Part shown: piece by piece, positions 13,891 to 28,115 of the stretch
Numbering within the stretch: position 1 is the stretch's first letter
Layout: every line of letters starts with the position of its first letter
Assembly (NCBI GenBank): GCA_944391285.1
Contig: CALXSY010000015.1
Location: forward strand, 1 to 41,427
Source: an uncultured Clostridia bacterium
GTDB lineage: Bacteria > Bacillota > Peptococcia > Peptococcales > Peptococcaceae
Length of the DNA: 41,427 nt
Direction: 5' to 3'
Notes under the pieces: model-generated
The model's database searches: none
Told to the model about the DNA's origin: nothing
Seen by the model: only the letters and a program-made list of their open reading frames with translations
Translations under genes and position numbers: made by a program

Positions 13891-13925
13891 AAAAAGCAGT
13901 TTGGATTTCCAAACTGCTTTTTTTA
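13889..13925. terminator. Bidirectional terminator between transporter and phage element
   Basis: A long perfect stem AAAAAGCAGTTTGGA/TCCAAACTGCTTTTT around a 2-base loop has A and T runs on both sides. It ends the ABC operon on the plus strand and the phage-element operon on the minus strand, and marks the left edge of the element. Confidence 0.9.
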
Positions 13926-14585
13926 TTTAATAGTAGGTCTGCCTTTTTTGTCATCATAGCCGACTTCAAGCGGCGGGATTAGTTTCGGCACATCTCTTAA
14001 GCGCACATAATTTACGCCGTCCAATTCAATCGCTTCTACTACGACCTCCTTGCCTTTTACATCAACCACCAAACTCTTACGTTCTTCCATAGCTGCTTGC
14101 ACCCTCTCTTTAAAATTTCTCCAAATCGATTCTTCCAAAAATGGTGCCGGACAAGATTTATGTGTTACATCATAGTGTCTTAAAACATGATTTAAGTCGA
14201 TATCATACTTCTTCATCAGCACCACCAACAATTCAATAGTTCTGCTTTGCGTCTCCCCGCTGATATGATAGCCGCTGCTGTCTTTATAGCTACACATCTC
14301 AATGCCAATGCTGTTTTCGTTGCGACACTCCGGATGATAATATTTAGTGCTGCCGCAATGCCAAGCTACATCTTTATCTTTAACCGATTGCCAAATTTCC
14401 TTTTCATCAACAAAATAATGAGCAGATGTCCCCCGGGATGCTCTTGCAAAATATTTGGCATTATTTTCAGCCGTGTCACCATCGTTAGCGGTATAATGCA
14501 CCACTAAATATTTAATTTTTTCTTTTCGGTTCGCCCGAAAATTTCTGCTGTCAGCTTGCAAAAATTCATTTACTATCTCCAACAT
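13923..14585 (-). CDS. Phage endolysin, N-acetylmuramoyl-L-alanine amidase
   Basis: 220 aa. Amidase_2 / T7-lysozyme fold at about 20–165: VVHYTAN with zinc ligand H30, SAHYFVD, GIEMCSY, then RHYDVTHKSCPAP with H137 and C145 as the other ligands and K143 in the place of the T7 lysozyme catalytic Lys. Cleaves the bond between N-acetylmuramic acid and the stem peptide. The C-terminal 50 residues contain GVNYVRLRDVPKLI, resembling a small copper-amine-oxidase-N-type or wall-binding module, uncertain. Last gene of the phage element. The start overlaps the holin stop by 20 bases. Confidence 0.92.
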   Translation of the reverse strand: MLEIVNEFLQADSRNFRANRKEKIKYLVVHYTANDGDTAENNAKYFARASRGTSAHYFVDEKEIWQSVKDKDVAWHCGSTKYYHPECRNENSIGIEMCSYKDSSGYHISGETQSRTIELLVVLMKKYDIDLNHVLRHYDVTHKSCPAPFLEESIWRNFKERVQAAMEERKSLVVDVKGKEVVVEAIELDGVNYVRLRDVPKLIPPLEVGYDDKKGRPTIK

Positions 14586-14868
14586 TTTCTTCTACCTCTT
14601 CTTTCGGCTTGGTATAATTAAGAGCTTGCTTGCTGTCCCCAATTCCACTGGTGGTCGGATCCAGCAGCACCCCTAATATCGCTAAAAAAACACTGCCTAA
14701 CATAAAAGGATTGCTAATCAATAGCTTAAATTGTTCAAACACCGACTGCCAGGAAGTAAAGGCATCTGCCGATACCCCCATCGCAGTCAAAATTACACCT
14801 AAAAGACCAATCCAAAAATATGGATTTTTTGCCCGCACTAAAAAGTTAATTTTCATTGTCTCACTCAT
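14566..14868 (-). CDS. Phage holin, phi LC3 type
   Basis: 100 aa. The N-terminal KINFLVRAKNPYFWIGLLG is typical of phi LC3-family holins. Two hydrophobic spans (about 15–33 and 50–66) surround a short amphipathic loop, with the conserved LDPTTSGIGDS after span 2 and a charged C-terminal tail. Forms membrane lesions that let the adjacent amidase reach the wall. Confidence 0.9.
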   Translation of the reverse strand: MSETMKINFLVRAKNPYFWIGLLGVILTAMGVSADAFTSWQSVFEQFKLLISNPFMLGSVFLAILGVLLDPTTSGIGDSKQALNYTKPKEEVEENVGDSK

Positions 14869-15190
14869 CCTTTCCCCAAGCTTTACTGCCTATATCAACC
14901 ACATAGGAAGGCAATTTCTTTAATTCTTCAACCAGCTTAGTAATTGTTCCGTTGCCGCCTAAACGATGATAAGCCTTATACATTTCACCAATATTTTCCA
15001 TAGCATAAATAGGAATATACTCTTTAGCCATATAATGATTATATCCGCCGATAATCTCGTTGCGCAAAAGTGCCCTGACACCGCTGAAAAGCGAAAATAC
15101 CGCCAAAGCAACAGCCGTGATAGCTGTCACACTCATTGCCAAAACAATCTGCACATAATATCTTATGATAAAATCAAGCACTTGCCACAC
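14861..15190 (-). CDS. Small phage lysis-region membrane protein
   Basis: 109 aa with one N-terminal membrane span (about 8–38) and a soluble tail. The segment LLRNEIIGGYNHYMAKEYIPIYAMENIGEMYKAYHRLGGNGTI (about 41–84) is a pattern I recognise from many Firmicute phage proteins encoded directly before the holin. These are often called holin or hypothetical; the role is unproven. Overlaps the holin gene by 8 bases. Confidence 0.75.
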   Translation of the reverse strand: MWQVLDFIIRYYVQIVLAMSVTAITAVALAVFSLFSGVRALLRNEIIGGYNHYMAKEYIPIYAMENIGEMYKAYHRLGGNGTITKLVEELKKLPSYVVDIGSKAWGKDE

Positions 15191-15321
15191 CCCTTTTCCT
15201 GAAAATTTTTCCCAATTATTTTCAAATTGTCGCTTCTGAAACGACCAAATTTGCCTTTCATCCTGCTAAAATAAATTATGTACCTTTTTTTACCAAAAAT
15301 TTATTTGTAAAGGATGATTCC

Positions 15322-16203
15322 ATGTTTTCCAATCAAGCTAATATTAATGAATTATTGCAAATTTGCAGCAAAGCTGATCCCGCTGAACTTTCTTTAGCCC
15401 AATTACTCTTAACCAATATTGATGCCAATACAAAATTAGGCTCCCGGCAAACTCCTGTTTTAGCGCAAATAATTCAAAATTTTTCTAAGTATTCTATAGC
15501 CAATACCTTTATGCTGCTGGAATACATCCGCCTGTTTTTAAGCCAAGGCTTTGATTGCCCTGCTAATGGTGCTGCCTGCCTCCATGCCCTTTTGGAATCC
15601 GTTTCGGATGAAAACTTGCTTACAGCAGCTGATTTATTAATCGCCGCAGGAACTATTATCACGCCAAAGAAGCTGGAGGAAATTTTAAAGGATATTTCTG
15701 AAATAGCCGCTTATCACGAATTTCAAACTCATAACTATTATTTGCAAAATCTCTTTTTTGCCTACCGCCAGCTTCTGCTCAATACCTTTACTTCTGTCAA
15801 TCCTCGTTATCTCGCTATCTCTCATTACACCACTGCTCTGCAGCAAAAGCTGCGCAATATCTGCTTTAACTCTTTAGAGCCACTTCCTAAGCACCTTTAT
15901 TTCAATTTTACTAACGGCACCCTCATCGTGCAGAACCACCCAAATATCTTTATGTGCTCCACCATTGAAAAGACCTTAACCCCACCCGCCCACCTTAATT
16001 TACAAATATCCCCTGTTTTAACGTCACTTTTAAAAGACCAATCTTTAGAAAGTGTTTCTTTCAGCTATCAAAAATTGGAAAACAGCCAAACAATCCAATA
16101 CTTCCCAACTATTCACCTAAATTTTTCGAAAAACCATTTAACTATTACTCGCAGCAAATCCTCCGGCAGCCTGCAAACAGCCATCGATGGTGAAATAATT
16201 TAG
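15322..16203 (+). CDS. Unrecognised protein on the opposite strand inside the phage element
   Basis: 293 aa with a credible start (AAAGGATG ribosome binding site). No signal peptide or membrane span. Residues 1–135 are helical with a repeat-like pattern (TFMLLEYIRLFLSQGFDCP, LLTAADLLIAAGTIITPKK) resembling ankyrin or other alpha-solenoid units. The C-terminal 100 residues look beta-rich. It is the only plus-strand gene in the element, and its stop overlaps the stop of the convergent ejection-protein gene by 4 bases. I do not recognise a family. Position and orientation suggest an accessory (cargo) gene with its own promoter, though I found no convincing sigma-A promoter in 15191–15321. Confidence 0.8.
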   Translation: MFSNQANINELLQICSKADPAELSLAQLLLTNIDANTKLGSRQTPVLAQIIQNFSKYSIANTFMLLEYIRLFLSQGFDCPANGAACLHALLESVSDENLLTAADLLIAAGTIITPKKLEEILKDISEIAAYHEFQTHNYYLQNLFFAYRQLLLNTFTSVNPRYLAISHYTTALQQKLRNICFNSLEPLPKHLYFNFTNGTLIVQNHPNIFMCSTIEKTLTPPAHLNLQISPVLTSLLKDQSLESVSFSYQKLENSQTIQYFPTIHLNFSKNHLTITRSKSSGSLQTAIDGEII

Positions 16204-17297
16204 TTTTCTTGTCTGCTGCTCAAAAGCCTTTGTGCAATACTAACCAAGAGATTTTGCGGGAACCCCATTTTAACCAGTTCTGCAATCCGAGCAATCTGCT
16301 CTTGAGTGTTTTCGCTGTCTGCAATATAGTTAACGATACTCTGATAATTGCCGACAACATCACTGTTTAAAGCTTGAGCAAATTCTTCCTCACTTACCTC
16401 ATCGCTCTGAGTGGATTTTTGATTAGAAGGCACTTGTTTATTTTGAAAAACTCCTTGAGCATCGCTGATTTTACTTAATTTAATAACCGGAAATTCCTTT
16501 TGCGCAAATTCAATAGTATCTTCATTCAAAAGTCCGCTGCTGGCTAAAATTTCGCTTAAAGCATCAGCTCCTTGCTGACGAATATCGCTTTCCTGACTTT
16601 CAGCTTCGCTTAAACCAGCCGACAATTCCTGCTGTATCTCCCGCAAGGCATCTTCATAATCATTTTTCAGGCTTTGCTGATTTTTTTGATAATATCCGCT
16701 GTTAACTAAACCATAGCGTGAAAAATTATTGCGCAGGGACTTTTGTGCCAACTGCTGATTGACATAAGCCTGCCTTGCTGCATCTTCCGCCGATGATTGG
16801 AGAGAAGCACGATAATCCGCCAGCTCAGAAACATAATCATCAATCTGCTTTTGCGTTTGATTAATACTGTTCATAATAGCCGAGCCGCCGCCTCCGGCAG
16901 CCAATCCATTATAAAACTGCACCTTGCCGTAATCTTTGCCGCCGATCAAATACTCCTGTCCGCCGCTGGCAAAGTAAACATTGCCTTTATCGTCTACACT
17001 CACCTTTTCATTGTATCCCAACCGGCGATTAATACTTTGCAGTCCTTCTTCACTGGTGCCATATTTATTTACTAATTGCTGCGCATTGTTTTTTTTGTAT
17101 TCAATGCTGCTTGTATTTGTCCCGCTTGTTCCCCCGCTTACGTAACTGCTGCCACTGCCGGCAGAACTACTGCTGTTATTATTTTGTGTGATACTGCTTA
17201 CAAAATCGCTGACACTGCTTTTAATATCATCGACATCGTAACCTTGATTAATTATGCTGCCTATTATAGCACCAATACCACTTGCCAATGCACCCAT
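16200..17297 (-). CDS. Putative phage ejection / internal virion protein
   Basis: 365 aa. It opens with a Gly/Ala/Ile-rich amphipathic stretch (GALASGIGAIIGSII), followed by a Ser/Gly/Asn-rich linker (about 35–65), a small folded segment (70–135) and a long Gln/Ala/Glu-rich helical region (140–255). This layout, and the position after the fibre genes and before lysis genes, fits a membrane-active DNA-ejection protein of a short-tailed phage. It is far too short for a tape measure. The assignment rests on composition and position. Confidence 0.5.
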   Translation of the reverse strand: MGALASGIGAIIGSIINQGYDVDDIKSSVSDFVSSITQNNNSSSSAGSGSSYVSGGTSGTNTSSIEYKKNNAQQLVNKYGTSEEGLQSINRRLGYNEKVSVDDKGNVYFASGGQEYLIGGKDYGKVQFYNGLAAGGGGSAIMNSINQTQKQIDDYVSELADYRASLQSSAEDAARQAYVNQQLAQKSLRNNFSRYGLVNSGYYQKNQQSLKNDYEDALREIQQELSAGLSEAESQESDIRQQGADALSEILASSGLLNEDTIEFAQKEFPVIKLSKISDAQGVFQNKQVPSNQKSTQSDEVSEEEFAQALNSDVVGNYQSIVNYIADSENTQEQIARIAELVKMGFPQNLLVSIAQRLLSSRQEN

Positions 17298-17314
17298 TTT
17301 ATCTACACTCCTTT

Positions 17315-17443
17315 TTAACGATAAACCTCGCCTACAATTTGATAATACTCATCTTTGTTGATCAACTTTTTCTGCACTGCTTTGCGCACCATTGACCTGC
17401 TCCAGTAGCCTAAAATAAAGTTTTTTTTGATAATATCCTTCAT
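17315..17443 (-). CDS. XkdX-like small phage protein
   Basis: A 42-aa peptide starting MKDIIKKNFILGYW and ending EYYQIVGEVYR. The aromatic-rich N-terminus, central VRKAVQKKLINKDEY and terminal ITGE-like motif match XkdX-family proteins, encoded just after tail-fibre genes in many Firmicute phages. A strong ribosome binding site (GGAAGGAG) overlaps the end of the preceding gene. Function of the family is unknown. Confidence 0.75.
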   Translation of the reverse strand: MKDIIKKNFILGYWSRSMVRKAVQKKLINKDEYYQIVGEVYR

Positions 17444-17446
17444 CGT

Positions 17447-17887
17447 CTACTCCTTCCACATAATCCAGCGAAATTCAGCCCCGCCGGTAAAAGCAACATA
17501 ATTAGCCGTATATCCTCCGCTTGCTCCTTTAAAAATCAATTCACCTGAATCTTCATTGTAGGTCAATTGAATAGAGGAGTCCCAACTCTCTAAGCTGTCA
17601 TAATGCCCTACTTTAGAATCGCTGCTGGTTCCACGGCCCCAAACTATATTCCAACTGTCCTCGCTGCGGTTAAAAAATAATGTAAACAAATATCCCATAG
17701 AATAACCGGTTGATGTTCCTTTGCCAACACACATAATGGCAATATAATCGGGAATAAATTCTGTGCTTAACTGCACAGTTTGCGTGTAATCGTTTGCCTC
17801 AGTTGCCGAGACAGCAACAAATTCTCCTGTAGCCAGTTTTACATTGCCACCGGCGCCGCCTTGTCCATACAAAAAACATTCGCCCAT
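17447..17887 (-). CDS. Probable tail-fibre tip protein
   Basis: 146 aa, Gly/Ser/Tyr/Thr-rich and predicted all-beta, starting MGECFLYGQGGAGGN. The start codon overlaps the stop of the fibre gene by one base, so it is translationally coupled. Position and composition fit a distal fibre or receptor-binding module. No specific family recognised. Confidence 0.6.
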   Translation of the reverse strand: MGECFLYGQGGAGGNVKLATGEFVAVSATEANDYTQTVQLSTEFIPDYIAIMCVGKGTSTGYSMGYLFTLFFNRSEDSWNIVWGRGTSSDSKVGHYDSLESWDSSIQLTYNEDSGELIFKGASGGYTANYVAFTGGAEFRWIMWKE

Positions 17888-18978
17888 TATCTAATCACCT
17901 CAATCTGTACATTAATGGCTACTGCAGGTTTTTTAGCAAAACAAGAAAAAAGTATCGCCCCATTATCTGCTGTTGCTTTATTAATTAATGCCCATGCCTC
18001 CAGCTCCGCGGCAGCTGTACCGCTATTAGTGCTAAAAATAGGCGTAATATGAGGCGTATCGCTGGCTAAAATTCCCGAAATGCTGACAGACTGTGTAAAA
18101 GGAGCCTCTTCTCCGCTCCACGAAGCAGAAATAGTTGCAGTAAATAATTTCCTTTCGGCTTTTGTTTGAAATTTGCTATTATGGGCATCTGCAGCGCTGT
18201 CATGAGCATTTAACTGAGCCTCAGTATAACTATTAACATAGCTATCCGTGTACTCTTCCGCATAAGCCTGAGCCGCATTCTGAGCTTCACTGGCTGCATC
18301 ATCAGCATAAACAAATATATCTGTTAGCTTGTTGGTGCTGTCATAAATAGCCTTAAACATATCACCGCCGCTGGCGCTTTCTCCCCCTATACTAACAAGC
18401 GCAGCATACACAGCTTTTGAGGTTGGTACTAAACTTTCATCATCCACCACCGTATCACTCAATGCCTCCATAGAAACAGCGCCTATTTGCAAAGCAGAGA
18501 CCTCATGAGGATTGCTCTTATCATCCATATGATCTTTAATATCCAGCCATTGATTATACACAGCCTTTGATGTAGGAACTTTAGTATTATCATTAACTAT
18601 TGTTTCAGTTAATTTGCTGTTAGCAACTGCCCCAATTTGCTCCGGAGAAACATTGTGAGGATTTCCACTGTTACTTACATGAGCAGTTAAGCTGACATTA
18701 ACATTATTTAAATCATTAGAAATGTCATTTAAAACTGCCTGCACATTATTGCCGTTATCAGTGCTGATCGTTGTTCCGATTTGACCGGCACCGCCTTCAG
18801 CCAGCAAAATATCAATAACATTATTTAAGCTTTCGCCTACATAATTTTTGCTCAAATCATCAAATGCAGCTTTTAATTCCGCAGCAGTCATGCCATTAGC
18901 GCTGGGAGTATCTGATAAAGCAATAATGCCTTTTTCATTAAAAAAACTTTCACTTAACTTGCATTCACTTAATCCCAT
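17887..18978 (-). CDS. Phage tail-fibre protein
   Basis: 363 aa. It contains tail-fibre-type repeats: GNPHNVSPEQIGAVANSKL with DNTKVPTSKAVYNQW, then SNPHEVSALQIGAVSMEAL with DESLVPTSKAVYAAL (about 108–195). The NPH-V----IGA pattern is common in phage fibre shafts. An Ala/Glu-rich helical segment follows (about 220–275) and then a beta-rich C-terminal domain with Ser/Thr-rich strands. Likely binds the host surface together with the next gene product. Confidence 0.8.
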   Translation of the reverse strand: MGLSECKLSESFFNEKGIIALSDTPSANGMTAAELKAAFDDLSKNYVGESLNNVIDILLAEGGAGQIGTTISTDNGNNVQAVLNDISNDLNNVNVSLTAHVSNSGNPHNVSPEQIGAVANSKLTETIVNDNTKVPTSKAVYNQWLDIKDHMDDKSNPHEVSALQIGAVSMEALSDTVVDDESLVPTSKAVYAALVSIGGESASGGDMFKAIYDSTNKLTDIFVYADDAASEAQNAAQAYAEEYTDSYVNSYTEAQLNAHDSAADAHNSKFQTKAERKLFTATISASWSGEEAPFTQSVSISGILASDTPHITPIFSTNSGTAAAELEAWALINKATADNGAILFSCFAKKPAVAINVQIEVIR

Positions 18979-19001
18979 CTGTTCATCACCTCTCTTTTAA
19001 C

Positions 19002-20900
19002 TTATAAAGCTCGATATCGCCCTTGTATAATATACTGCACTTCAAAACCATAAAAACCAAATGCCTCAGCCTCAGCATTTTCAAAACGAAACTGCACCAG
19101 CATAAAGCGCCTTAAAGGCTTATTAGTTGCCACGATAAGAGGAGAATCATCAGTATTAAAAGTAAACCTGTTAAAATCTATATCGGCAAAATCAAAAATA
19201 TCTGCATAAGCGGTTCGCACTTCACTTAAATCGCCTTTCGCCCGATAATAAATTTTAACCCCCGAACGATGATACGGCGCCAGCATTAACCAAAAGCCGA
19301 TAATTTTTTTCAAATACCCCATATGTCCAAAGGAAAAATACGGCGTATCCCAAACCGCTTTAATAGCCACTCCGTTATCCATATAAACATTGTTCGTAGC
19401 ACTATGCTCGCTTTCCCGAAAGAAGCGATAAATTTTTCCTGCGCTATCAGCAAAATACAAATCTCCCTCATGCTCAAACCAAACTCTGACCGGTACATTT
19501 TCGAAATAATACCACTCATACTGAAAAGAAGAAGATGAAGCATTCTCTTCATAAACCTTCTGCCTGCCGTCAGCCACATAAACATGATCGTTGATGGCTA
19601 AATAATAATAATTGTTATACTCCATGCCTACACATTCAGCCAAATTTTCCTCCGCTAAAAGCTTAGGATTGACATAATAACTCCGCAGCTCAGCATATTT
19701 ATTGCCGGTCACGTCTTGAGTAGTTACAGCAAAAACACCTTCACTGGCGACAAAAATAGGCTCACCATTAAAAACCGCAAATCCATGCTTGCTGCAAGCC
19801 CCAACACCGCTTACCCCGTCAAAAGCAGGAAAAAATGCATTGCCATCACTATCCAAATCTCCGATCCGCAAAAAAACCGTAATATCCTGTCCATTGTCTT
19901 CTTTATGCACAGCCATCTTATTGCCAACTCGGCTGTAGCCCATAATATTCGAAGATTCCAGACCTAAGCGTGCATAATTATTTTCCGGGAAATAAGTCAA
20001 ATCATCCATTTCCGACCAAAAATCATAATTTCCCCATTGCTCGTTACCACTGACAAATAACCGGTTGCTCTCACCATCAACCCCGTAAAGCATACCAAAT
20101 TCGCAGCCATTAATCTTTTCTTTACCGCCTTTTTCTGATACCCAAGCAAACTCAATTATAACATTATCTTCACCTAAACTGGGGCTGGTTCCGGGAGCAG
20201 TAGTGAATGTTACTTTTCCATCTGTTCTATTGACTGACAAACCGCTTCCCTCATTTATCGTCTGCCAACTACCATTAGACTGCAGCACCCTGGCACTGAC
20301 ACTGCCTGATGCTAAATTTACTTTATCTAAAACAAACACCTTGGTAGCAGCATTTTCTTGGTCAACATAAAAACTGTTTTTTCTGTAGCTGCTAAGTAAA
20401 TTGCCATCTTCAAAAACTAATCCTTCACTGCCATCCGGATTCGCCCCAATAATGGTAGTTGGCACATAAGCTATATCCTCGACCTTCTGCACCGAAAAAC
20501 TTTGGTCGTCATCCTCACCGTAAACCAATAGCTTTTTGCCATCCATCAGCCACAGCTTATTAGCAAATTGCACACAAGAAGAGCGCTTATTTTCCATTTC
20601 TGTGTAAATTGCTGTAAATCCATTACCCACACCGGCATTTTCCAATAATTTTCCTTCTGATATTTCCCACTCATATAAATTAGTGCCGCTATGCACTAAC
20701 ACTTTTTCGACGCTGCTCGTCTTTAAACGGTAAATACCATTAATCTGAGCTCCCAAACTTCCCAAAACTTTATAACCCGTTCGTTTGATAGGCTTTCCAG
20801 CCAAGTCGCTGATTAAATTAACCGCATTAGGGCTGCGTCCATTAGCCACATTGACCGGAGAAGAAGCAAAGTCCACTCCACGGAAACTATCAACTTTCAT
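19002..20900 (-). CDS. Large structural protein, tail nozzle/hub type (beta-propeller-like)
   Basis: 632 aa from the ATG giving MKVDSFRGVDFASSP, which has an AAAGG site upstream. The frame remains open to a GTG at 20963 that lacks a ribosome binding site. The N-terminus (FRGVDFASSPVNVANGRSPNAVNLI, then KRTGYKVLG) resembles the start of short-tailed-phage nozzle/hub proteins such as P22 gp10 or T7 gp12. Many short beta repeats follow with Trp, Tyr and Gly (VLVHSGTNLYEWE, LWLMDGKKLLVYGED, YYYLAINDHVYVADG), suggesting a propeller. No tape-measure or tube gene lies nearby, consistent with a short tail. The analogy is pattern-based. Confidence 0.6.
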   Translation of the reverse strand: MKVDSFRGVDFASSPVNVANGRSPNAVNLISDLAGKPIKRTGYKVLGSLGAQINGIYRLKTSSVEKVLVHSGTNLYEWEISEGKLLENAGVGNGFTAIYTEMENKRSSCVQFANKLWLMDGKKLLVYGEDDDQSFSVQKVEDIAYVPTTIIGANPDGSEGLVFEDGNLLSSYRKNSFYVDQENAATKVFVLDKVNLASGSVSARVLQSNGSWQTINEGSGLSVNRTDGKVTFTTAPGTSPSLGEDNVIIEFAWVSEKGGKEKINGCEFGMLYGVDGESNRLFVSGNEQWGNYDFWSEMDDLTYFPENNYARLGLESSNIMGYSRVGNKMAVHKEDNGQDITVFLRIGDLDSDGNAFFPAFDGVSGVGACSKHGFAVFNGEPIFVASEGVFAVTTQDVTGNKYAELRSYYVNPKLLAEENLAECVGMEYNNYYYLAINDHVYVADGRQKVYEENASSSSFQYEWYYFENVPVRVWFEHEGDLYFADSAGKIYRFFRESEHSATNNVYMDNGVAIKAVWDTPYFSFGHMGYLKKIIGFWLMLAPYHRSGVKIYYRAKGDLSEVRTAYADIFDFADIDFNRFTFNTDDSPLIVATNKPLRRFMLVQFRFENAEAEAFGFYGFEVQYIIQGRYRAL

Positions 20901-21013
20901 CTGATAAACCTTTTGTCCACTGCCAAAATTATATATCACTTCCGCAAAGCACCACCAAAGCACCCTAATCTTTTGAAACCATCAGTGCGCTTTCATGCCT
21001 TGCTCCCTCCCTT

Positions 21014-21391
21014 CTAATAATGTTTTTCAATATCCTGCCATCTGCCCCTGAGAGCGTACATCTTCCCGACCTCAAATTTATTGTTAAAATATCCGGCTCG
21101 CACATTATCATCATCGCTGCTGGCTAAAAGAGCGCATACTCCCCATACTGCACAACTTAACAGTAAATTTTCGTCATAATCAATCTCATCACTAAAAGCG
21201 CCTACTATAATAGGTTCTTTCAACTCCTCTTTACCGTTAGCGAGTCTAATTCCATTTTCCAAATCCCAGCATTCAGCCAATATACTATTCAGCATCCCTA
21301 AAAATCCATTGCGCCAAACCGCGCAATCACTGCCATGTTCGCCAAAAATTCCGGCACACAACTCGAATAATTTTTCCGCTGTCACAAGCAC
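21014..21391 (-). CDS. Head–tail adaptor-like protein
   Basis: 125 aa, mostly helical and acidic, with the pattern ENLLLSCAVWGVCALLASSDDD followed by FNNKFEVGKM. Location immediately after the capsid gene and the helical pattern fit the connector/adaptor protein under the portal. No firm family match. Confidence 0.55.
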   Translation of the reverse strand: MLVTAEKLFELCAGIFGEHGSDCAVWRNGFLGMLNSILAECWDLENGIRLANGKEELKEPIIVGAFSDEIDYDENLLLSCAVWGVCALLASSDDDNVRAGYFNNKFEVGKMYALRGRWQDIEKHY

Positions 21392-21414
21392 ACACCCCTA
21401 TTCTTTGTGACCCT

Positions 21415-21446
21415 GCAAGAGAAATAGCTTACGCTATTTCCCTTGC
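21415..21446 (-). promoter_or_regulatory. Intergenic stem-loop between capsid and adaptor genes
   Basis: A 14-base inverted repeat GCAAGAGAAATAGC/GCTATTTCCCTTGC (one mismatch) with loop TTAC lies 14 bases after the capsid stop. There is no T-run on the minus strand, so it is more likely an mRNA 3'-end stabiliser or processing site than a terminator. It could help keep capsid mRNA abundant. Confidence 0.6.
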
Positions 21447-21460
21447 CGCCACATTAAATA

Positions 21461-22522
21461 TTAAACGCAAACATGCTCTACGACTCCAGAGGCAAACATA
21501 CCATCTTTGTAAGCATAAGCTTTAATCACTGTACCTGCTTCAGGATTAGTAATTGCTGCTGTATATACTTGAGCAGTAGGGCTATACCTGGGATCAGAAC
21601 CATCCAAAGTATACTTAACCTTACTATCTAAAGTATTGCTTTCAATAGTAGTTGTGCTTCCTTTAGTTACCGCAGGAGTCTCACATACGGAATCAACATC
21701 AACCAAAGCATAAACACCATCAGCTTTAGCCCCTAAAACAAAAGCATCAAAATAATTTCTGCCTTCCAATAAAGAACCATCTAAGCCGGGCACATTTTTC
21801 AACACTCTGGCAGTTTTGATCTTGTTGGGCAAAATAACTGCATCTTTATAAGCAATTAAAAAATAAGTATTCTCCGGGAAATAGCAATCCGGTACTTTGA
21901 TAACCTTCATATCAGCGATCTCACCAACTAATCCTTTTTCCAATGCCTTGGCAGCCAAAGAATCTACAGCTAAAAATTCACTTGCCTGGCGCAGCAAATT
22001 GTAATAGGTCGCTTTAATATATAAATATCTGTTTTCCGGTGGCACCAATTTATTATCCATAAGAGTTGCTGCCTCAAAAATATGAGAAACAATATTTGAC
22101 TCACTTGGTGCCTTGTCGGCGCCAACAATATTGCCGGCTTCATGGAAATACTTATTCAAAGCATACTTATCCATCATTGGCACAACCTTTTCTGCCAATT
22201 GAATACCTAACATCTTGCCGGCTTCTTTAGTCAGCATCTGATCGCTGTCATTGCCACGGTCAATAGTAATACTGAATCCTTTATCCTGAGTCATTACCAA
22301 CTCCTGAATAGTATCCCCTAACTCAGTTGGCGTGCCAAATCTATTGGCTGCTGCTGTGCGGTCATAATCATTCAAATCAACGGTAACCGGAGTGTAAATA
22401 GTTAAGCTTTTAACACCCGCAAAATCATAATCTGTAGATACATTACCGGCAAAATAGGATGAATGAGTAAATTTTGCCGCTATTTTTTCACTATATTTAC
22501 TTGCTAAATTAATACTGCTCAT
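21461..22522 (-). CDS. Major capsid protein with C-terminal Ig-like domain
   Basis: 353 aa. Residues 1–275 have the features of an HK97/P22-type coat protein (SSINLASKYSEKIAAKFTHSS at the start, later YFDAFVLGAKADGVYALV), and the gene follows a scaffold-like gene. Residues about 285–350 (KYTLDGSDPRYSP, VYTAAI, GTVIKAYAYKDG) match the chitobiase/beta-hexosaminidase C-terminal fold, an Ig-like module. It would project from the capsid surface and could bind cell-surface sugar or protein. A TAAGGAGG ribosome binding site is present. Confidence 0.85.
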   Translation of the reverse strand: MSSINLASKYSEKIAAKFTHSSYFAGNVSTDYDFAGVKSLTIYTPVTVDLNDYDRTAAANRFGTPTELGDTIQELVMTQDKGFSITIDRGNDSDQMLTKEAGKMLGIQLAEKVVPMMDKYALNKYFHEAGNIVGADKAPSESNIVSHIFEAATLMDNKLVPPENRYLYIKATYYNLLRQASEFLAVDSLAAKALEKGLVGEIADMKVIKVPDCYFPENTYFLIAYKDAVILPNKIKTARVLKNVPGLDGSLLEGRNYFDAFVLGAKADGVYALVDVDSVCETPAVTKGSTTTIESNTLDSKVKYTLDGSDPRYSPTAQVYTAAITNPEAGTVIKAYAYKDGMFASGVVEHVCV

Positions 22523-22554
22523 TTTAAAATCCTCCTTAAATTATCTTCATTTAA

Positions 22555-23136
22555 TTACCTGCCAAACAAAGCCTTAACAAACCCATCTTCTTCATATCGT
22601 CCGTTAGAACGGGCATTAGGCGCAGCCGCCTTTCTGTTAGCCTGCTCCCGCTCCAGCATTACCATTTTTAACTGCTGGCGGGCAAGCAAATATTCCTGCC
22701 AAGCCTCTAACGGCGACAAACCGCTTTCCAAGCCTTCGACAAATCCTCGGGGCAGCGCCTCAAAATGACGATATCTGCTTACCTCCGGATATCTCCGCAT
22801 CAGCTCGGCAAATGCCCTCTTCTTTCCGCCGTTAGCCCAAACCATTTCCTCTGCGCCTTCAGGCAATGCATTAATTGCAACATCTGCCCCACTACCCGTT
22901 TCATCTCTAAGCAAAGCCTTGCCTTCTCCAGCCATGCCGTTTATACTTTCCAGCATTTTAATCTTTTGGCGGCATTCGTCACGATCCTTGCGGATGCGGT
23001 CATAGTCCATGCCCTTTTGTGCCAATCTTACTAATTCCTCAAATCCAACCTCATACAAATTTCCGTTGTGTTTTAAAGTAAATACATCCTGTACCTGCGG
23101 ATTCATTTCCTCATTTTTCAACAACTCTTCCAACAT
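22555..23136 (-). CDS. Probable scaffolding protein
   Basis: 193 aa, highly charged and helical, with a central coiled-coil-like stretch (DRIRKDRDECRQKIKMLE) and a basic C-terminal tail. The position between portal and capsid and the length fit a scaffold. The early YEVGFEELVRLAQKGMDYDRIR pattern is common in Firmicute phage scaffold-like proteins. Good ribosome binding site GAGAGGAG. No protease motif is visible. Confidence 0.65.
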   Translation of the reverse strand: MLEELLKNEEMNPQVQDVFTLKHNGNLYEVGFEELVRLAQKGMDYDRIRKDRDECRQKIKMLESINGMAGEGKALLRDETGSGADVAINALPEGAEEMVWANGGKKRAFAELMRRYPEVSRYRHFEALPRGFVEGLESGLSPLEAWQEYLLARQQLKMVMLEREQANRKAAAPNARSNGRYEEDGFVKALFGR

Positions 23137-23233
23137 TCCTCTCTCCTCTCTTTTGCAAATTTATGCTTAAAGTCTTGGTAAACCTCAAGCTTTATCAAAA
23201 AAGTCTCCCTGGTAAGAAACCTTGATAACCTTT

Positions 23234-24811
23234 TTAGGATAATTTTTTCTCAATGCTTTCTACTGCTTCTTGGGCTTGACTTTCATTTTCTTTCATCTTT
23301 TTCTTGATAGCCCGCATAATTCTCGACTTGTTGCGCACATATCCATCAGGCATCTGCTCCAAATAAGTAAAGGCATCAGGAATAATTCCGCCCGCCAGCA
23401 TATTATCCAGCGTCTGCACCTGAACCAACTCGGACCAATAGCTTGCCGCACCGACATTAACCTTGAGCTTCATCGCCAATCCTTCCAGCACAGCAAAGTC
23501 GAACCAAACAAATTCCTCCTTGCCGTCCTCGTCCACTACCATAATTTCTCTAAGCCCATAGAACCTGCCCATAAAGTCCAAAACTACCCGAATAAAATCT
23601 TCGACTGCCTGATAAAAATCCAGCTTCTGAACCTCCAGCGGCTGGGCGCTGGCCTGCTGCACCGCAATAATCGCCGATGTATTATTAGGCTTAACATTGC
23701 CTAACGCCGCATCATAAACCCCCATACTGTCTTTCGTCAAACTAATCGTGCTGTTAGCCAAGGACAGCGCCTGCTCATTCATTCCCGCCGGCGCAAAGGT
23801 AGCAAATAAAGCCTGCTGCGGATTACCATTCACCGCAATAGCCTGCCCAACCTTATTGCTCCATTTAGGAATCAAGGTTGCATCATACAGAAGTTTCGGA
23901 AAAGCCATATTTTTCTGATATTCCATCGCCATAGCGTAAATTTTATTGATAAAAATCTGATTATTGATTCTGCCCGTAAGCGGCGAAACACCATGACAGC
24001 AATTTTTCTCCCGCTCCCAGCTCATAAAAACGCACGGATAATGCCGAACACCTAAGCAAACCGGCTCGTCTAATACTATATTCCGACAGCATCTCGTCCA
24101 CCACACTACCCCGTCTTCCTTCCAAAACTTGATAGCCAGCGTAGTAAACTCGCCTTCCAGCTTCTCATCATTATAAATTCTATCCGTCCGATACCCGTCC
24201 GGCACAATGCTTTCCCAATCCTCAATTCCCGCCTTTCTTGCCTCCTGGCGCACAGTTACCGTCGGCTTTCTCTGGCGTATAATAATAAACGGCTGTCTTT
24301 CCACCACATTGGTCGATTTATCACCAAAGCAAACATCCACATTGTCCACCAAATCAACCTCAATTTTTCCCGGCACCAACAGCTTTTCCCCGTTATACGC
24401 ATCTTTGTCCCACCATACATACATACAAGCATCACCGTCAATAGCACAATTACGCAAAAATCTCCTGCTCAGCCAGTTAAATTTCACATTCTCCAGCAAA
24501 CTGTCAATACTGCTGCGCACTGCATTCTCTACCGCTGCCTTGTCAACGCCCTGCATGCCCTCTAAAAGTTCAACATCAACCCCAACATCATCGCTGACCA
24601 GCATCGATACAAAATAATTAACCGCCGGCTTCAGCACATTAAATACCGGTTTATCCAAATCCGGAGCCTTAACCCCTTCCCACTGCTTATCATGATAAAA
24701 ATTATTATTCCGCTTTACTGTATCAAATAATCCCAAACCCTCTTTAAAGCTATCATCCTCATCCAGCTCTTTAAAAATATCCTCAGCACTTACAGCCATA
24801 CTTCTATTCAT
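23234..24811 (-). CDS. Phage portal protein (P22-like type)
   Basis: 525 aa from the ATG giving MNRSMAVSAEDIF, which has GAGGGGG upstream; a further in-frame ATG lies 21 bases before. Portal-like segments include NNNFYHDKQWEGV, FNVLKPAVNYFVSMLVSD, FLRNCAIDGDACMYVWWD, LTGRINNQIFINKIYAMAM and ISLTKDSMGVYDAALGNVKPNNTSA. The last is typical of P22-like portals. The portal forms the dodecameric DNA channel at one capsid vertex. It overlaps the preceding small gene. The gap to the scaffold gene (23137–23233) holds only a weak inverted repeat. Confidence 0.87.
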   Translation of the reverse strand: MNRSMAVSAEDIFKELDEDDSFKEGLGLFDTVKRNNNFYHDKQWEGVKAPDLDKPVFNVLKPAVNYFVSMLVSDDVGVDVELLEGMQGVDKAAVENAVRSSIDSLLENVKFNWLSRRFLRNCAIDGDACMYVWWDKDAYNGEKLLVPGKIEVDLVDNVDVCFGDKSTNVVERQPFIIIRQRKPTVTVRQEARKAGIEDWESIVPDGYRTDRIYNDEKLEGEFTTLAIKFWKEDGVVWWTRCCRNIVLDEPVCLGVRHYPCVFMSWEREKNCCHGVSPLTGRINNQIFINKIYAMAMEYQKNMAFPKLLYDATLIPKWSNKVGQAIAVNGNPQQALFATFAPAGMNEQALSLANSTISLTKDSMGVYDAALGNVKPNNTSAIIAVQQASAQPLEVQKLDFYQAVEDFIRVVLDFMGRFYGLREIMVVDEDGKEEFVWFDFAVLEGLAMKLKVNVGAASYWSELVQVQTLDNMLAGGIIPDAFTYLEQMPDGYVRNKSRIMRAIKKKMKENESQAQEAVESIEKKLS

Positions 24812-25046
24812 CAATATCATCCCCCTCATCACCGTTATATCCTAATAAATTATTCCACTGCTTTAATAACGCACTGTCCATCTTGCCTGCGCCGCTTTCC
24901 TCCACCGCAAACGCCATCTTTTGCCCTTCTTCATTGCGCCGGCAGCTCATCCCCGTCAATACTATCACTGCCACCGCCGTTAGACAAAGCACAAAGATTC
25001 CGCACAACACTAAAAACATACCCATAACCAGCAAATCTTCAAGCAT
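24804..25046 (-). CDS. Small membrane protein between terminase and portal
   Basis: 80 aa. One strong hydrophobic span (about 7–32), then MSCRRNEEGQK and an acidic tail ending DEGDDIDE. The ATG overlaps the stop of the large terminase gene by one base, and its own stop lies inside the portal gene, so it is translated as part of the packaging operon. Role unknown: spanin-like, superinfection exclusion or a virion component are all possible. Confidence 0.7.
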   Translation of the reverse strand: MLEDLLVMGMFLVLCGIFVLCLTAVAVIVLTGMSCRRNEEGQKMAFAVEESGAGKMDSALLKQWNNLLGYNGDEGDDIDE

Positions 25047-26380
25047 TACTCTTCACCCCCGTAACTAAAAAAATCCAGCTCTTCCTCATCATCTATCTCA
25101 ATATGCCTATCCTGCCCCAGCATGCAGCCAAAATCAGCCGCCACCGGTCGCCAAGCACAAAAATAGCGCAGCGCATCAACTACATGAGTCAAATCATGGG
25201 GCTCTGTCGCCACATCCTCAACCCCGCCTTTGGCAAATTGCACCGCCGGCAAACAGCGAATCAATTCTTCGCAATTTTCAAATATTTTCAGCCGGCTGTC
25301 CCTTTCTCCTTTTTCGTTCACCACAACCTTCAGCCACTCCCGGACATTAAACCAACCGCCGATTCTCTCGCTTTTAACCATCGTCAGCACCAGTCCACAG
25401 GCAGCAAATATTTCCGCCCGGCTTCTCCCCGACTCCTGACTTCTCCCCCATAGATCAGCCGGTGCCAGCGTGCAGAAAACTTCATCACCGTTATGGCTCA
25501 ATATCCTCCTTGCCGCCTCTGAAACGATCAAATTGCTCACGCATAATTCATCATAAACATATGCCCTGCCCATTCCGTCCAAAGCAATCCATAAGCACGC
25601 CAGCCTGTCCAATCCATAATCAAATACCCTTATCCTCGTCCACTCTTTCCTAAGCCCACAGGGCTTAATCACATGAACATTCCAGTCAAACTCGCCAAAA
25701 AACTGCCCGCTGAAAACATCCCAATCCCCATCTAACCACGCCCGCCTTCTCTGCGGCGGCAATGCCTTCAGCTGCTCCACATAAGCTGGATCCTGCTTCA
25801 GCAGCGCCTTATTATCGAAAACCGTAGCCTTGATAAAGACATAATCTTCGCCCTTTTCCCCTTCACGAAAATTTCTATCAATAAATAACCGCTTGACCCA
25901 GCCATGTCCCACACCTCCGGGATTACACGTCAGATAAAAGCGCTTGGGAAAATCATTCACTCCCCTTATACAAACCTTCAGCGCATCAAAAACCTCTTCA
26001 GGAAAATGGGTCGCTTCGTCTAAAAATATCACATCAAATTCCATACCTTGATAACGATCCACATCGCTTACGCACCCACAAAATCCAAAAAAGATCATCG
26101 AGCCATTCAAAAAAGCCAGCGATTTATCCATCTCTTTATAAACAGCCACGCCTTTAGTATCCCTCACCAACGGTCTGATATGATTTTCCCTCAGCTCGCC
26201 ATAGCTTCTCCTGACAATCAAAATCTTAATTCCGCCATACCTCAGCGCCAACAGTAAACTCTTGCGTCTCACCGCCCAAGATTTGCCGCCGCCTCTGGCA
26301 CCGCCGTAAGCCACATATCTATTTTTCGCCTCAAAAAACAGCCTCTGTTTTTCATTCGGCACCCCCAAAACCAACTTCAC
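25046..26380 (-). CDS. Phage terminase large subunit
   Basis: 444 aa DNA-packaging motor. ATPase domain: Walker A GGARGGGKS (26–34), Walker B VIFLDEA (117–123) and coupling motif YLTCNPGG. Nuclease domain: VFDYGLDRLACLW (about residue 250) with the first acidic residue and HVVDALRYF near 415 with the last. All key motifs appear intact, which argues against decay. It lies 29 bases after the small subunit. Confidence 0.95.
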   Translation of the reverse strand: MKLVLGVPNEKQRLFFEAKNRYVAYGGARGGGKSWAVRRKSLLLALRYGGIKILIVRRSYGELRENHIRPLVRDTKGVAVYKEMDKSLAFLNGSMIFFGFCGCVSDVDRYQGMEFDVIFLDEATHFPEEVFDALKVCIRGVNDFPKRFYLTCNPGGVGHGWVKRLFIDRNFREGEKGEDYVFIKATVFDNKALLKQDPAYVEQLKALPPQRRRAWLDGDWDVFSGQFFGEFDWNVHVIKPCGLRKEWTRIRVFDYGLDRLACLWIALDGMGRAYVYDELCVSNLIVSEAARRILSHNGDEVFCTLAPADLWGRSQESGRSRAEIFAACGLVLTMVKSERIGGWFNVREWLKVVVNEKGERDSRLKIFENCEELIRCLPAVQFAKGGVEDVATEPHDLTHVVDALRYFCAWRPVAADFGCMLGQDRHIEIDDEEELDFFSYGGEE

Positions 26381-26409
26381 ATCTTCTCACCTCTAACTTT
26401 CCCTTTCAC

Positions 26410-26844
26410 CTATCCGCCAAACGCCTCAGCCTCCTCAGAAAATACAACCTCAACTACCTTATCAAAATTATCCACCCGCTCACTCCATAAATCAGGACGG
26501 CGGTTTTTCAGCCAAAACAATTGCGCTGTCACATTAGGCTCCACAACCTTTTGCACCACTTTTACCACCACCAACTCCCCAGATTTATCCAGCTGCTTGG
26601 TGATCTCTTCCGACACATATCCTACTGCCCGCTTAAAAAGTGCGCTTTCCACAGCAATATCAGCCGCATCCCGCCCTCTTTTCAGCGTTTCCTCTAAATC
26701 AGGATACTTCTTTCTCCACCGCCGCAGTGTGGCAACCCCCACACCCATTTTGGCGGCAATCTCTTCCAAATTTAACCCTTCACGGCACCATCCAGCCAAC
26801 AAATCCAATCCTTCACTCTCCAGCCACCGGTCTACCCGTGCCAC
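26410..26844 (-). CDS. Phage terminase small subunit
   Basis: 144 aa. N-terminal helix-turn-helix (LNLEEIAAKMGVGVATLRRWRKKYPDL, about 24–50), central helical oligomerisation region and a C-terminal NVTAQLFWLKNRRPDLWSER motif found in many Firmicute small terminases. Recognises the packaging start site and recruits the large subunit. Confidence 0.9.
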   Translation of the reverse strand: MARVDRWLESEGLDLLAGWCREGLNLEEIAAKMGVGVATLRRWRKKYPDLEETLKRGRDAADIAVESALFKRAVGYVSEEITKQLDKSGELVVVKVVQKVVEPNVTAQLFWLKNRRPDLWSERVDNFDKVVEVVFSEEAEAFGG

Positions 26845-26876
26845 AGTGCCTCACCTCTCCATACTTTACAATTTAT

Positions 26877-26885
26877 ATTATATCA
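26877..26885 (-). promoter_or_regulatory. Candidate extended -10 late promoter of the structural operon
   Basis: On the minus strand, TGATATAAT is an extended -10 element. No good -35 box lies 17 bases upstream; instead there is TCAC-N8-GTGA, a short inverted repeat overlapping the -10. A weak -35 with a nearby dyad is typical of an activator-dependent promoter. It lies directly after the sigma-like regulator gene and before the small terminase gene. Confidence 0.45.
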
Positions 26886-26923
26886 CAGACAAAAGTGACA
26901 ATTTGTGCCAATTTCAGCAACAA

Positions 26924-27301
26924 TCAATTTTTCTCCATTATTTCCAACTTTTTTAATCCCATCTCATTGATTCTCAGTACATGCCGTCTGGAAAATCCCG
27001 TTCTTTTAGCAATCTCCTGCCAGCTTAAATAATTAACGTACCTCAACTCCAGCACCAAGCGCATCCGCCGATCTGTAAGCTTTTGCAAATTTTCCAACAC
27101 TTCTTCTCTTAAGCCAATATAACTCTCCACCTCATCTTGCAGCTTTATTTGAATATTTGCCAGCCTTCCTTCTAAATACTTGCCTTTTTTCAGTCCGCGG
27201 CAGCTTTTCTTCAGCAGCTCTAAATGTCCCTGTTCCTCAACCAGCGCCTCAATTAAACCTTCCGTCCACCTTAAAGCCTGCAGTTCGTCGACAATACCCA
27301 T
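26924..27301 (-). CDS. Sigma-region-4-like / ArpU-type late regulator
   Basis: 125 aa, helical. The C-terminal RMRLVLELRYVNYLSWQEIAKRTGFSRRHVLRINEMGL (about 78–115) is a sigma-factor region 4 type helix-turn-helix as in DUF1492/ArpU-family phage proteins, which sit before the terminase genes and switch on late transcription. No region 2 is present, so it is not a full sigma factor. The ATG directly follows the stop of the preceding gene with no spacing. Confidence 0.75.
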   Translation of the reverse strand: MGIVDELQALRWTEGLIEALVEEQGHLELLKKSCRGLKKGKYLEGRLANIQIKLQDEVESYIGLREEVLENLQKLTDRRMRLVLELRYVNYLSWQEIAKRTGFSRRHVLRINEMGLKKLEIMEKN

Positions 27302-27868
27302 TTAAGCCTCCTCAAAAATTTTCATAAATTCACTCATCGACTCAACCTTATCACCCATATTTTCCAACATTACCCTTCTGCGCTCGATTTTGATCATTTT
27401 CATAAAATTAGCATCGTTATTATCAATAAATAAAGGACAATCCAAAACAATAGGCAAAGCTATTGTCTCACCATTGCTAATTTTTAAATATTTCTTGCAA
27501 TAAACCGCCCCATGAGGCAAAATTAAATCAGCATCCCAGCTGCATCTTAAACTAATAGGAGCACCGCTCCTGGCACAATCAAAACAAATCGTCCCGCCTT
27601 CCTCATTAACCATCACCCCGGCAGAAACATCAGCCCTGTGCCAATCATCAATTCCGCTTACACTGTTAAGTTTTCTCCTTTTCCCTAATGACGGACATAA
27701 AACTCCGGCAGCCATACAAGCCTTAGCCCAGCTGCCATACTCTTCAATAGCGCATTGCCGTACCCGGCTCGATACATAACTTGATACCGCGACCCCATCA
27801 TTATTTTTAGCAACCTGCAAAATCTCCTCTAAAACTCTACCCCTGTTCCATATACTCTTTCTTGACAT
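27302..27868 (-). CDS. Putative zinc-binding DNA-binding protein with homing-endonuclease-type repeat
   Basis: 188 aa, first gene of the phage element. Residues about 9–56 (VLEEILQVAKNND then EEYGSWAKACMAAGVLCP) match the homing-endonuclease-associated repeat (HNH_repeat), a helical DNA-binding unit with a GSW-AL--AG core. Residues 95–124 hold CFDC, C109 and C124, a possible four-Cys zinc site. No HNH or GIY-YIG catalytic motif is seen, so it is more likely a regulator than a nuclease. Strong GGGGAG ribosome binding site and a consensus-like promoter upstream. Confidence 0.65.
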   Translation of the reverse strand: MSRKSIWNRGRVLEEILQVAKNNDGVAVSSYVSSRVRQCAIEEYGSWAKACMAAGVLCPSLGKRRKLNSVSGIDDWHRADVSAGVMVNEEGGTICFDCARSGAPISLRCSWDADLILPHGAVYCKKYLKISNGETIALPIVLDCPLFIDNNDANFMKMIKIERRRVMLENMGDKVESMSEFMKIFEEA

Positions 27869-27908
27869 TCCTTATCTCCCCTTTTATTCAATAAACGCCT
27901 ATACTTAA

Positions 27909-27937
27909 AATATACCTAAACAGACAAGAAAAGTCAA
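27909..27937 (-). promoter_or_regulatory. Sigma-A promoter at the head of the phage element
   Basis: On the minus strand, TTGACT (27932–27937) and TATATT (27909–27914) are separated by 17 bases, just upstream of the 188-aa gene. It would drive the regulator genes and possibly the whole 14-kb operon. No repressor gene or clear operator is seen next to it. Confidence 0.75.
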
Positions 27938-28021
27938 CAAATACCAATAAAGTTAATTATATACAATAATACTAAATTTTTTTTTCAAAAAACAGCAAAA
28001 TGCGCCATCACCGCTCAATCT

Positions 28022-28073
28022 AAAAAGAAATGAGCGTTACTTCACCCCTCAAAGGGCTCTGTAACGCTCATTT
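28022..28073 (-). terminator. Rho-independent terminator of der–plsY–gpsA
   Basis: A 13-bp perfect stem AAATGAGCGTTAC/GTAACGCTCATTT (28028–28040 with 28061–28073) encloses an inner hairpin CCCT/AGGG, followed on the minus strand by CTTTTTAG. The 9-base direct repeat ACCGCTCAA flanks it on both sides (28010–28018 and 28074–28082). It lies about 41 bases past the gpsA stop and marks the right edge of the phage element. Confidence 0.8.
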
Positions 28074-28115
28074 ACCGCTCAAAATATTTTTTTCTAAAAT
28101 TTTTCTTTCTTTAAC

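Follow-up and report, generated by a model that had tools for sequence, protein, structure and literature searches.

Described regulators of phage-like particles

PBSX of Bacillus subtilis is a defective phage-like particle with Xre and a long tail, in which a sigma-like positive factor, Xpf, is encoded just before the small terminase. The control of PBSX is closer to that of a Christensenella hongkongensis relative of the cluster described here, which has Xre, ImmA and a sigma-like gene, than to that of the cluster itself, although both PBSX and the cluster have a sigma-like factor gene before the small terminase of a phage-like particle.

Three further systems are relevant. The phi13 Ltr protein, in the part of its description used here (PMC13123087), is a small regulator encoded directly upstream of its own late promoter, which requires four repeats for activity. 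For CcGTA, the corresponding part of PMC11150451 describes a two-gene activator, GafYZ, of which GafZ has a sigma-like helix-turn-helix and a site between the -10 and a poor -35. Podovirus-type gene-transfer-like particles of gut Clostridia were reported in January 2026 (sections of PMC12946183); the text of that paper on FpGTA contains "promoter" zero times and "regulat" twice, and therefore leaves open how such particles are turned on.

The particle cluster and its insertion site

The window, i.e. the whole stretch of 41,427 nucleotides analysed, is contig C15 of a 1.70-Mb genome of an uncultured Clostridia bacterium (Peptococcaceae). An intact particle cluster of the short-tailed-phage type occupies positions 13923-27868 of the minus strand, between an amino-acid ABC transporter operon at left and gpsA at right. 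Its genes, in the order of transcription, are:

27302-27868, minus strand: gene 1 (zn), 188 aa, N-terminal HNH-associated repeat and four conserved cysteines
26924-27301, minus strand: gene 2 (sig), 125 aa, predicted helical hairpin plus sigma region 4, DUF1492-like fold
26410-26844, minus strand: terS, small terminase with helix-turn-helix (PHROG 309, E 1.6e-46; HTH_23, 4.3e-6)
25046-26380, minus strand: terL, large terminase (Pfam and PHROG matches)
24804-25046, minus strand: small membrane-type ORF, conserved in L012 (see below)
23234-24832, minus strand: portal, P22 type (Pfam P22_portal, 3.5e-10; PHROG 156)
22555-23136, minus strand: putative scaffold, by position and similarity to L012
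21461-22522, minus strand: major capsid protein with C-terminal Fn3-associated domain (PHROG 422, 3.9e-43; Fn3_assoc)
21014-21391, minus strand: putative head-tail adaptor, by synteny and similarity with L012 and L013
19002-20963, minus strand: virion structural protein, likely tail nozzle (PHROG 3287, 7.1e-36)
16200-18978, minus strand: tail-fibre type and other virion genes, three ORFs (PHROG tail matches for 17887-18978)
13923-14868, minus strand: lysis module, holin and amidase endolysin (Phage_holin_1, 2.4e-18; Amidase_2, 2.7e-27)

All of the recognised particle and lysis ORFs are intact in the ORF list. The start codon of terS is GTG, preceded by GGAGAGGTG. A 293-aa ORF at 15322-16203 lies on the plus strand, opposite to the particle operon that surrounds it, and has no match in Pfam, PHROG or NCBIfam. 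The C-terminal domain of the capsid protein (Fn3-associated/chitobiase-C-like) also matches a 1765-aa open frame in genome G059.

The element holds neither the integrase nor the repressor of a temperate prophage: the seven PF00589 matches of the genome are all on contigs other than C15, and no repressor or replication genes are recognisable among the ORFs of the element. Nor were att-like repeats found at its flanks, the longest common word being 10 nt compared to a mean of 8.8 and a maximum of 12 in shuffles. A cluster free of replication and integration genes is also a feature of FpGTA of Faecalibacterium, which, as far as described in sections of PMC12946183, shares with the window the podovirus-type TerS-TerL-portal-scaffold-capsid series without replication genes and the Gram-positive host, a likeness of gene content. 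According to the same sections, which mention no regulator for FpGTA, it differs in having its lysis genes in a second operon and a TerS without an obvious DNA-binding domain (PMC12946183), whereas the TerS of the window, with its matches to HTH_23 and PHROG 309, has such a domain and is phage-like as judged from its sequence.

Among 12 relatives of the same family, eight have a gpsA match, and in all eight the gene after gpsA encodes a YkvA-like protein; this gene has no match in the window genome, where the element stands in its place (right flank, 28116). The capsid protein was found at E at most 1e-60 only in its own genome within a set of 46 genomes of the class, and at 1e-3 among 60 genomes only in its own genome, in G002 (32%) and in G059 (C-terminal domain only); among the 12 other family genomes it has no kin except the 32% one in G002. 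The insertion is therefore lineage-specific, in a genome set that contains one genome of the window's genus. In codon usage, the element is somewhat unlike the host genes (RSCU r 0.83, compared to 0.92 between halves of the host genes).

The sigma-like gene sig

The product of sig is a small basic protein (pI 9.0) of about the size of Ltr-type regulators (~130 aa), and its gene is followed, as in Ltr systems, by a promoter and then by terS. It matches Sigma70_r4 (sigma-70 region 4) above the Pfam cut-off (E 6.7e-8) and the transcriptional regulators of PHROG 36 (2.4e-11); matches to PHROG 79, 'anti-termination protein Q-like' (E 0.0095), and to Pfam DUF1492 (E 0.047) are weak. A profile of seven relatives of sig, compared to the PDB, retrieved region 4 of sigma factors (best 7.6e-7). 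The AlphaFold2 model built with the seven-relative alignment (pLDDT 94) combines an N-terminal helical hairpin with sigma region 4, and a DUF1492-like fold is confidently predicted; the best viral folds in BFVD are DUF1492 proteins (E 2.5e-6, TM 0.94 to the query). A Foldseek search of the PDB gave no match at E 0.001, with sigma factors and region-4 domains at the top of the list. These results agree with a preliminary description of the locus in recognising a sigma-4-like gene, and disagree with it in calling the product ArpU-like: none of the 23 NCBIfam matches is named ArpU, and the nearest family by fold is DUF1492.

The companion gene zn

The stop codon of zn and the start codon of sig abut (TAAATG). 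The zn protein of the window has no Pfam match (0 families) and no convincing match in PHROG or NCBIfam. Its homologue in L012, a 7.7-kb IMG/VR contig, is 43-45% identical and matches PF18780 (HNH_repeat) below threshold (E 6.1e-4, 20.5 bits compared to the curated cut-off of 26). Cysteines 95, 98, 109 and 144 are aligned in the two proteins within the context CFDCARSGAP...RCSWDA...CP, which is kept between them. The histidines are H77 and H119 in the window and none in L012; because no histidine is common to both, zn is concluded to be without an HNH catalytic core. Thus, of the homing-endonuclease-type repeat, the four-cysteine motif and the absence of a catalytic motif that had been attributed to this protein, the latter two stand, and the repeat is seen below threshold through the L012 homologue. 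Zinc binding may be supposed, and zn probably binds DNA. The AlphaFold model (pLDDT 48.9) is confident only at the N-terminal helices. A match to an Aerococcus phage primase (E 0.1) was judged to be a chance cysteine match.

Beyond L012, no homologue of zn was found in viral contigs, in 149 other relatives or in 248 genomes of the C. hongkongensis order, and no homologue with an established role came to light. zn is a rare companion of sig.

Promoters and repeats at the head of the element

The control elements of the region are:

28015-28085, minus strand: gpsA intrinsic terminator (fold -29.9 kcal/mol, z -6.2, 0/200 shuffles; 13-bp perfect inverted repeat)
27909-27937, minus strand: sigma-A-type promoter TTGACT-17-TATATT before zn, predicted start ~27902
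26895-26914, minus strand: tandem 10-bp direct repeats AAATTGGCAC-AAATTGTCAC, putative sig binding site (P 0.006 versus shuffles)
26877-26885, minus strand: extended -10 TGATATAAT without -35 (8/8 positions; 0.65% of shuffles, P 0.0065), predicted start ~26870

The gpsA terminator separates the element from the der-plsY-gpsA operon, and the promoter before zn lies ~80 nt past it. Among dinucleotide shuffles, 3.3% reach a score of at least 10/12 when the last 100 nt are shuffled and 5.6% when the whole 247-nt gap is; promoter-like matches in the entire element number 44, not much more than in shuffles (33.3, sd 5.4). A sigma-A-type promoter is thus present at the head of the element, as previously proposed, and is plausible by its location, but its match is only modestly above chance. 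No significant operator repeat was found at this promoter, nor any LexA-type box within one mismatch, one site having two mismatches. An operator common to both promoters was also considered, as TTGTCTGT occurs in each of them, and was rejected because 677/2000 shuffles likewise gave a common word of at least eight letters.

The gap between sig and terS is 79 nt, and its best -35/-10 pair matches at 8/12 positions only, so that the extended -10 with a poor -35 expected before terS is indeed present. With +1 at 26870, the tandem repeats extend from -44 to -25, over the missing -35. The overlapping dyad noticed earlier is mainly a tandem direct repeat (0.6% of shuffles), in which a short palindrome, ACAA-A-TTGT, spans the joint of the two copies. 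A reading of the gap as four repeat copies was not significant (P 0.17). There is no stable hairpin between the 26870 promoter and terS.

This arrangement is the one published for phage late-regulator promoters. The Ltr families, RinA and phi13 Ltr, in the portions of PMC13123087 that describe them, share with sig a small basic protein encoded directly upstream of a late promoter, direct repeats between the gene and the -10, and a packaging gene next in order. The differences from the Ltr cases described there are two significant tandem 10-bp repeats for sig in place of four, the abutting zn gene, and the membership of sig in a named Ltr family, which is not established by sequence (PMC13123087, same portions).

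Related elements

The viral contig L012 has the order zn-sig-terS-terL-portal-MCP-nozzle, as in the window, with terL, portal and MCP 67-71% identical; zn and sig adjoin or overlap there too. The contig starts 18 bp before zn, which places the zn promoter outside the comparison. Between sig and terS, L012 has a gap of 32 bp without repeats and without an extended -10, the closest match reaching 5-6 of 8 positions. Relatives of terL in viral contigs were collected as well (80/117 loci kept). A screen of the regions upstream of them with loose profiles found zn only in L012 and sig-like sequences in eight ORFs of seven loci, L012 included; most of these terL relatives belong to other phages and were left out of the promoter comparison.

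In Christensenella-type elements, a sig-like gene is followed by an extended -10 (TGGTATGAT in L013 and L202; TGGTATTAT at a similar distance in L006). An enolase gene adjoins both L013 and L202, two related elements whose sig-like proteins share 85% identity. Past the sig-like gene of L013 come four copies of GTCC at a spacing of 10-11 bp (0/200 shuffles); L202 keeps them, as judged by eye, and L006 has no significant repeats there by the shuffle test. Directly past the sig-linked promoter, there is an intrinsic terminator in each of the three (L202:3285-3400, L013:3936-4050, L006:2342-2460), a layout that would be expected for anti-termination of the Q or GafZ type. Both L202 and L013 carry Xre. 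In L206 (C. hongkongensis), which is the same element as L006, ImmA and Xre are divergent from the sig-like gene beside host genes, and there is no integrase between the host nrdDG-like genes and ImmA. L202:3414-17400 contains two or more copies of terL, which alternate with large proteins rich in Arg and Glu whose N-terminal parts are in common, as if cassettes had been duplicated.

A tree of 34 capsid proteins pairs the window with L012 (100/95), places the capsids of Christensenella and Ventrousia beside them (99/99) and leaves a larger group from Clostridia outside. Of the 87 genomes of the Ventrousia family, 51 have a capsid gene of this kind (E at most 1e-30), and one locus was fetched from each of 20 of these 51. 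Flanking host genes are common with at least one other locus in 18/20, in two main sets. The clusters of L007 and L009 occupy one and the same locus. Between them, terS, terL, portal, capsid and nozzle have dN/dS values of 0.047-0.085, and the tail gene has 0.158; dS of those first five genes is 0.54-0.76, compared to 0.68 in clpB, 0.87 in a gene of the ACC-deaminase-like type and 0.22 in rplQ. Two further locus pairs have dN/dS of 0.030-0.097 for recognised particle genes. Because of the common flanking genes and the low dN/dS, the Ventrousia-family clusters are considered to be inherited vertically and under selection; purifying selection on these relatives of the window's cluster is strong, and their sites in the chromosome are fixed. 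They resemble FpGTA, as described in sections of PMC12946183, in gene content. L007, L009 and L068-L087 (the family reached from G151) are a candidate family of domesticated particles like FpGTA. Divergent sig-like and ImmA-like genes lie beside rplQ in L007 (948-2061) and L009 (975-2054), ~3 kb from the particle cluster, with dN/dS of 0.08 and 0.11, and are a possible remote regulator pair.

A sig-like gene is absent from 19/20 loci of the Ventrousia-family clusters, the exception being the phage-like L086, and zn is absent from all 30 loci searched, among which some stretches are shorter than 20 kb and L006, L014 and L206 are one element. With these absences, the lack of a terS promoter in L012 and the lineage-specific insertion, the earlier suggestions that zn is a switch, that the host controls the pair and that the pair is the domestication switch are not sustained.

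Models for control of the particle operon

The preferred reading, to which a probability of roughly 0.6 is assigned, is that an intact particle cluster without an integrase has its control head here, with a terS promoter that would be driven by sig. The gene pair and its abutting junction, the sigma-4 domain and predicted fold of sig, the promoter elements, the intact operon and the lack of integrase, repressor and replication genes in the element are read from the sequence itself; binding of the tandem repeats by sig, activation by sig, and any part played by zn or by the host are what we infer. In this model, zn and sig would be read as a bicistronic unit from the sigma-A promoter at ~27902, and the product of sig would be a late transcription regulator whose sigma-region-4 helix-turn-helix binds the repeats at -44 to -25. 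It would thereby make up for the -35 contact that the extended -10 promoter (start ~26870) lacks, and would turn on terS together with the genes for head, tail and lysis. The product of zn, probably co-translated with sig, would most likely be a DNA-binding partner or gatekeeper. The sigma-4 domain with its DUF1492-like fold, the above-chance repeats and extended -10, the isolation of the unit by the gpsA terminator, the same gene order in L012, the repeats and extended -10 past the sig-like gene of L013 and L202, and the extended -10 of L006 all favour this model; the L012 gap without a terS promoter, the insignificance of four-fold repeats in the window and in L006, a zn promoter only modestly above chance, the near-shuffle number of promoter-like matches in the element and the lack of a zn homologue with an established role count against it. 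An activator of the adjacent late promoter is probably what sig is, a regulator of known kind; for this gene, the proposal that the pair turns on the particle operon is well supported, fitting the phi13 Ltr precedent and the arrangement in L013 and L202.

An ordinary decayed prophage, which has lost its integration, immunity and replication region and retains zn-sig as a leftover early-to-late boundary of no use to the host, is a serious alternative at slightly short of even odds, and is itself compatible with the mechanism proposed for sig. It would account for the DNA-binding helix-turn-helix of TerS, the YkvA-like gene in place of the insertion in 8/8 family relatives, the scarcity of capsid kin in the family and the deviating codon usage; the intactness of all recognised particle and lysis ORFs counts against it. 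The C. hongkongensis relative is likewise without an integrase between the nrdDG-like genes and ImmA, and therefore absence of integrase seems to be a property of the lineage and not only of decay. A different possibility, considered unlikely, is a single transcript from 27902 through zn to the amidase, with the 26870 promoter inactive or minor and sig acting elsewhere or as an anti-terminator. The lack of a separate terS promoter in L012, the weak PHROG 79 match of sig and the terminators past the sig-linked promoters of L202, L013 and L006 speak for it; the above-chance extended -10 and repeats of the window, and the absence of a stable hairpin from there to terS, speak against it.

The position of zn invites comparison with repressors. 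The window has no repressor where relatives carry Xre (L202, L206 and L013), with ImmA in one of them (L206), and to this extent the suggestion that the gene pair replaces the usual phage repressor is fair. That zn is a substitute repressor, keeping sig or the promoter of sig silent until the host gives a signal, is doubtful: a strong unrepressed promoter feeding lysis genes would presumably be lethal, but zn is in the same operon as the activator, L012 keeps this order, and the zn promoter has neither a significant operator repeat nor a close LexA-type box. Caulobacter GafYZ, in the passages of PMC11150451 that describe it, resembles zn-sig in being a two-gene activator operon whose second protein has a sigma-factor-like helix-turn-helix, and in having a target promoter with a poor -35, a binding element around the spacer and one particle cluster to control; it differs in being alphaproteobacterial and in that GafZ is an anti-terminator (PMC11150451), the likeness being one of layout. 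zn-sig is a possible Gram-positive counterpart of GafYZ. It is decidedly improbable that zn and sig together are a dedicated two-gene activator, an independent Gram-positive counterpart of GafYZ for a podovirus-type gene-transfer or bacteriocin-like particle that shares its capsid lineage with the vertically inherited Clostridia clusters, in which zn replaces the repressor and ties release to a host signal.

What is new in the preferred reading of a sig-driven terS promoter is that a zn gene, and no repressor, adjoins sig on a particle of this lineage that lacks an integrase. With a probable activator next to a compact promoter, the element makes a switch testable in a related particle, and the zn-sig head offers a way into how such particles are turned on.
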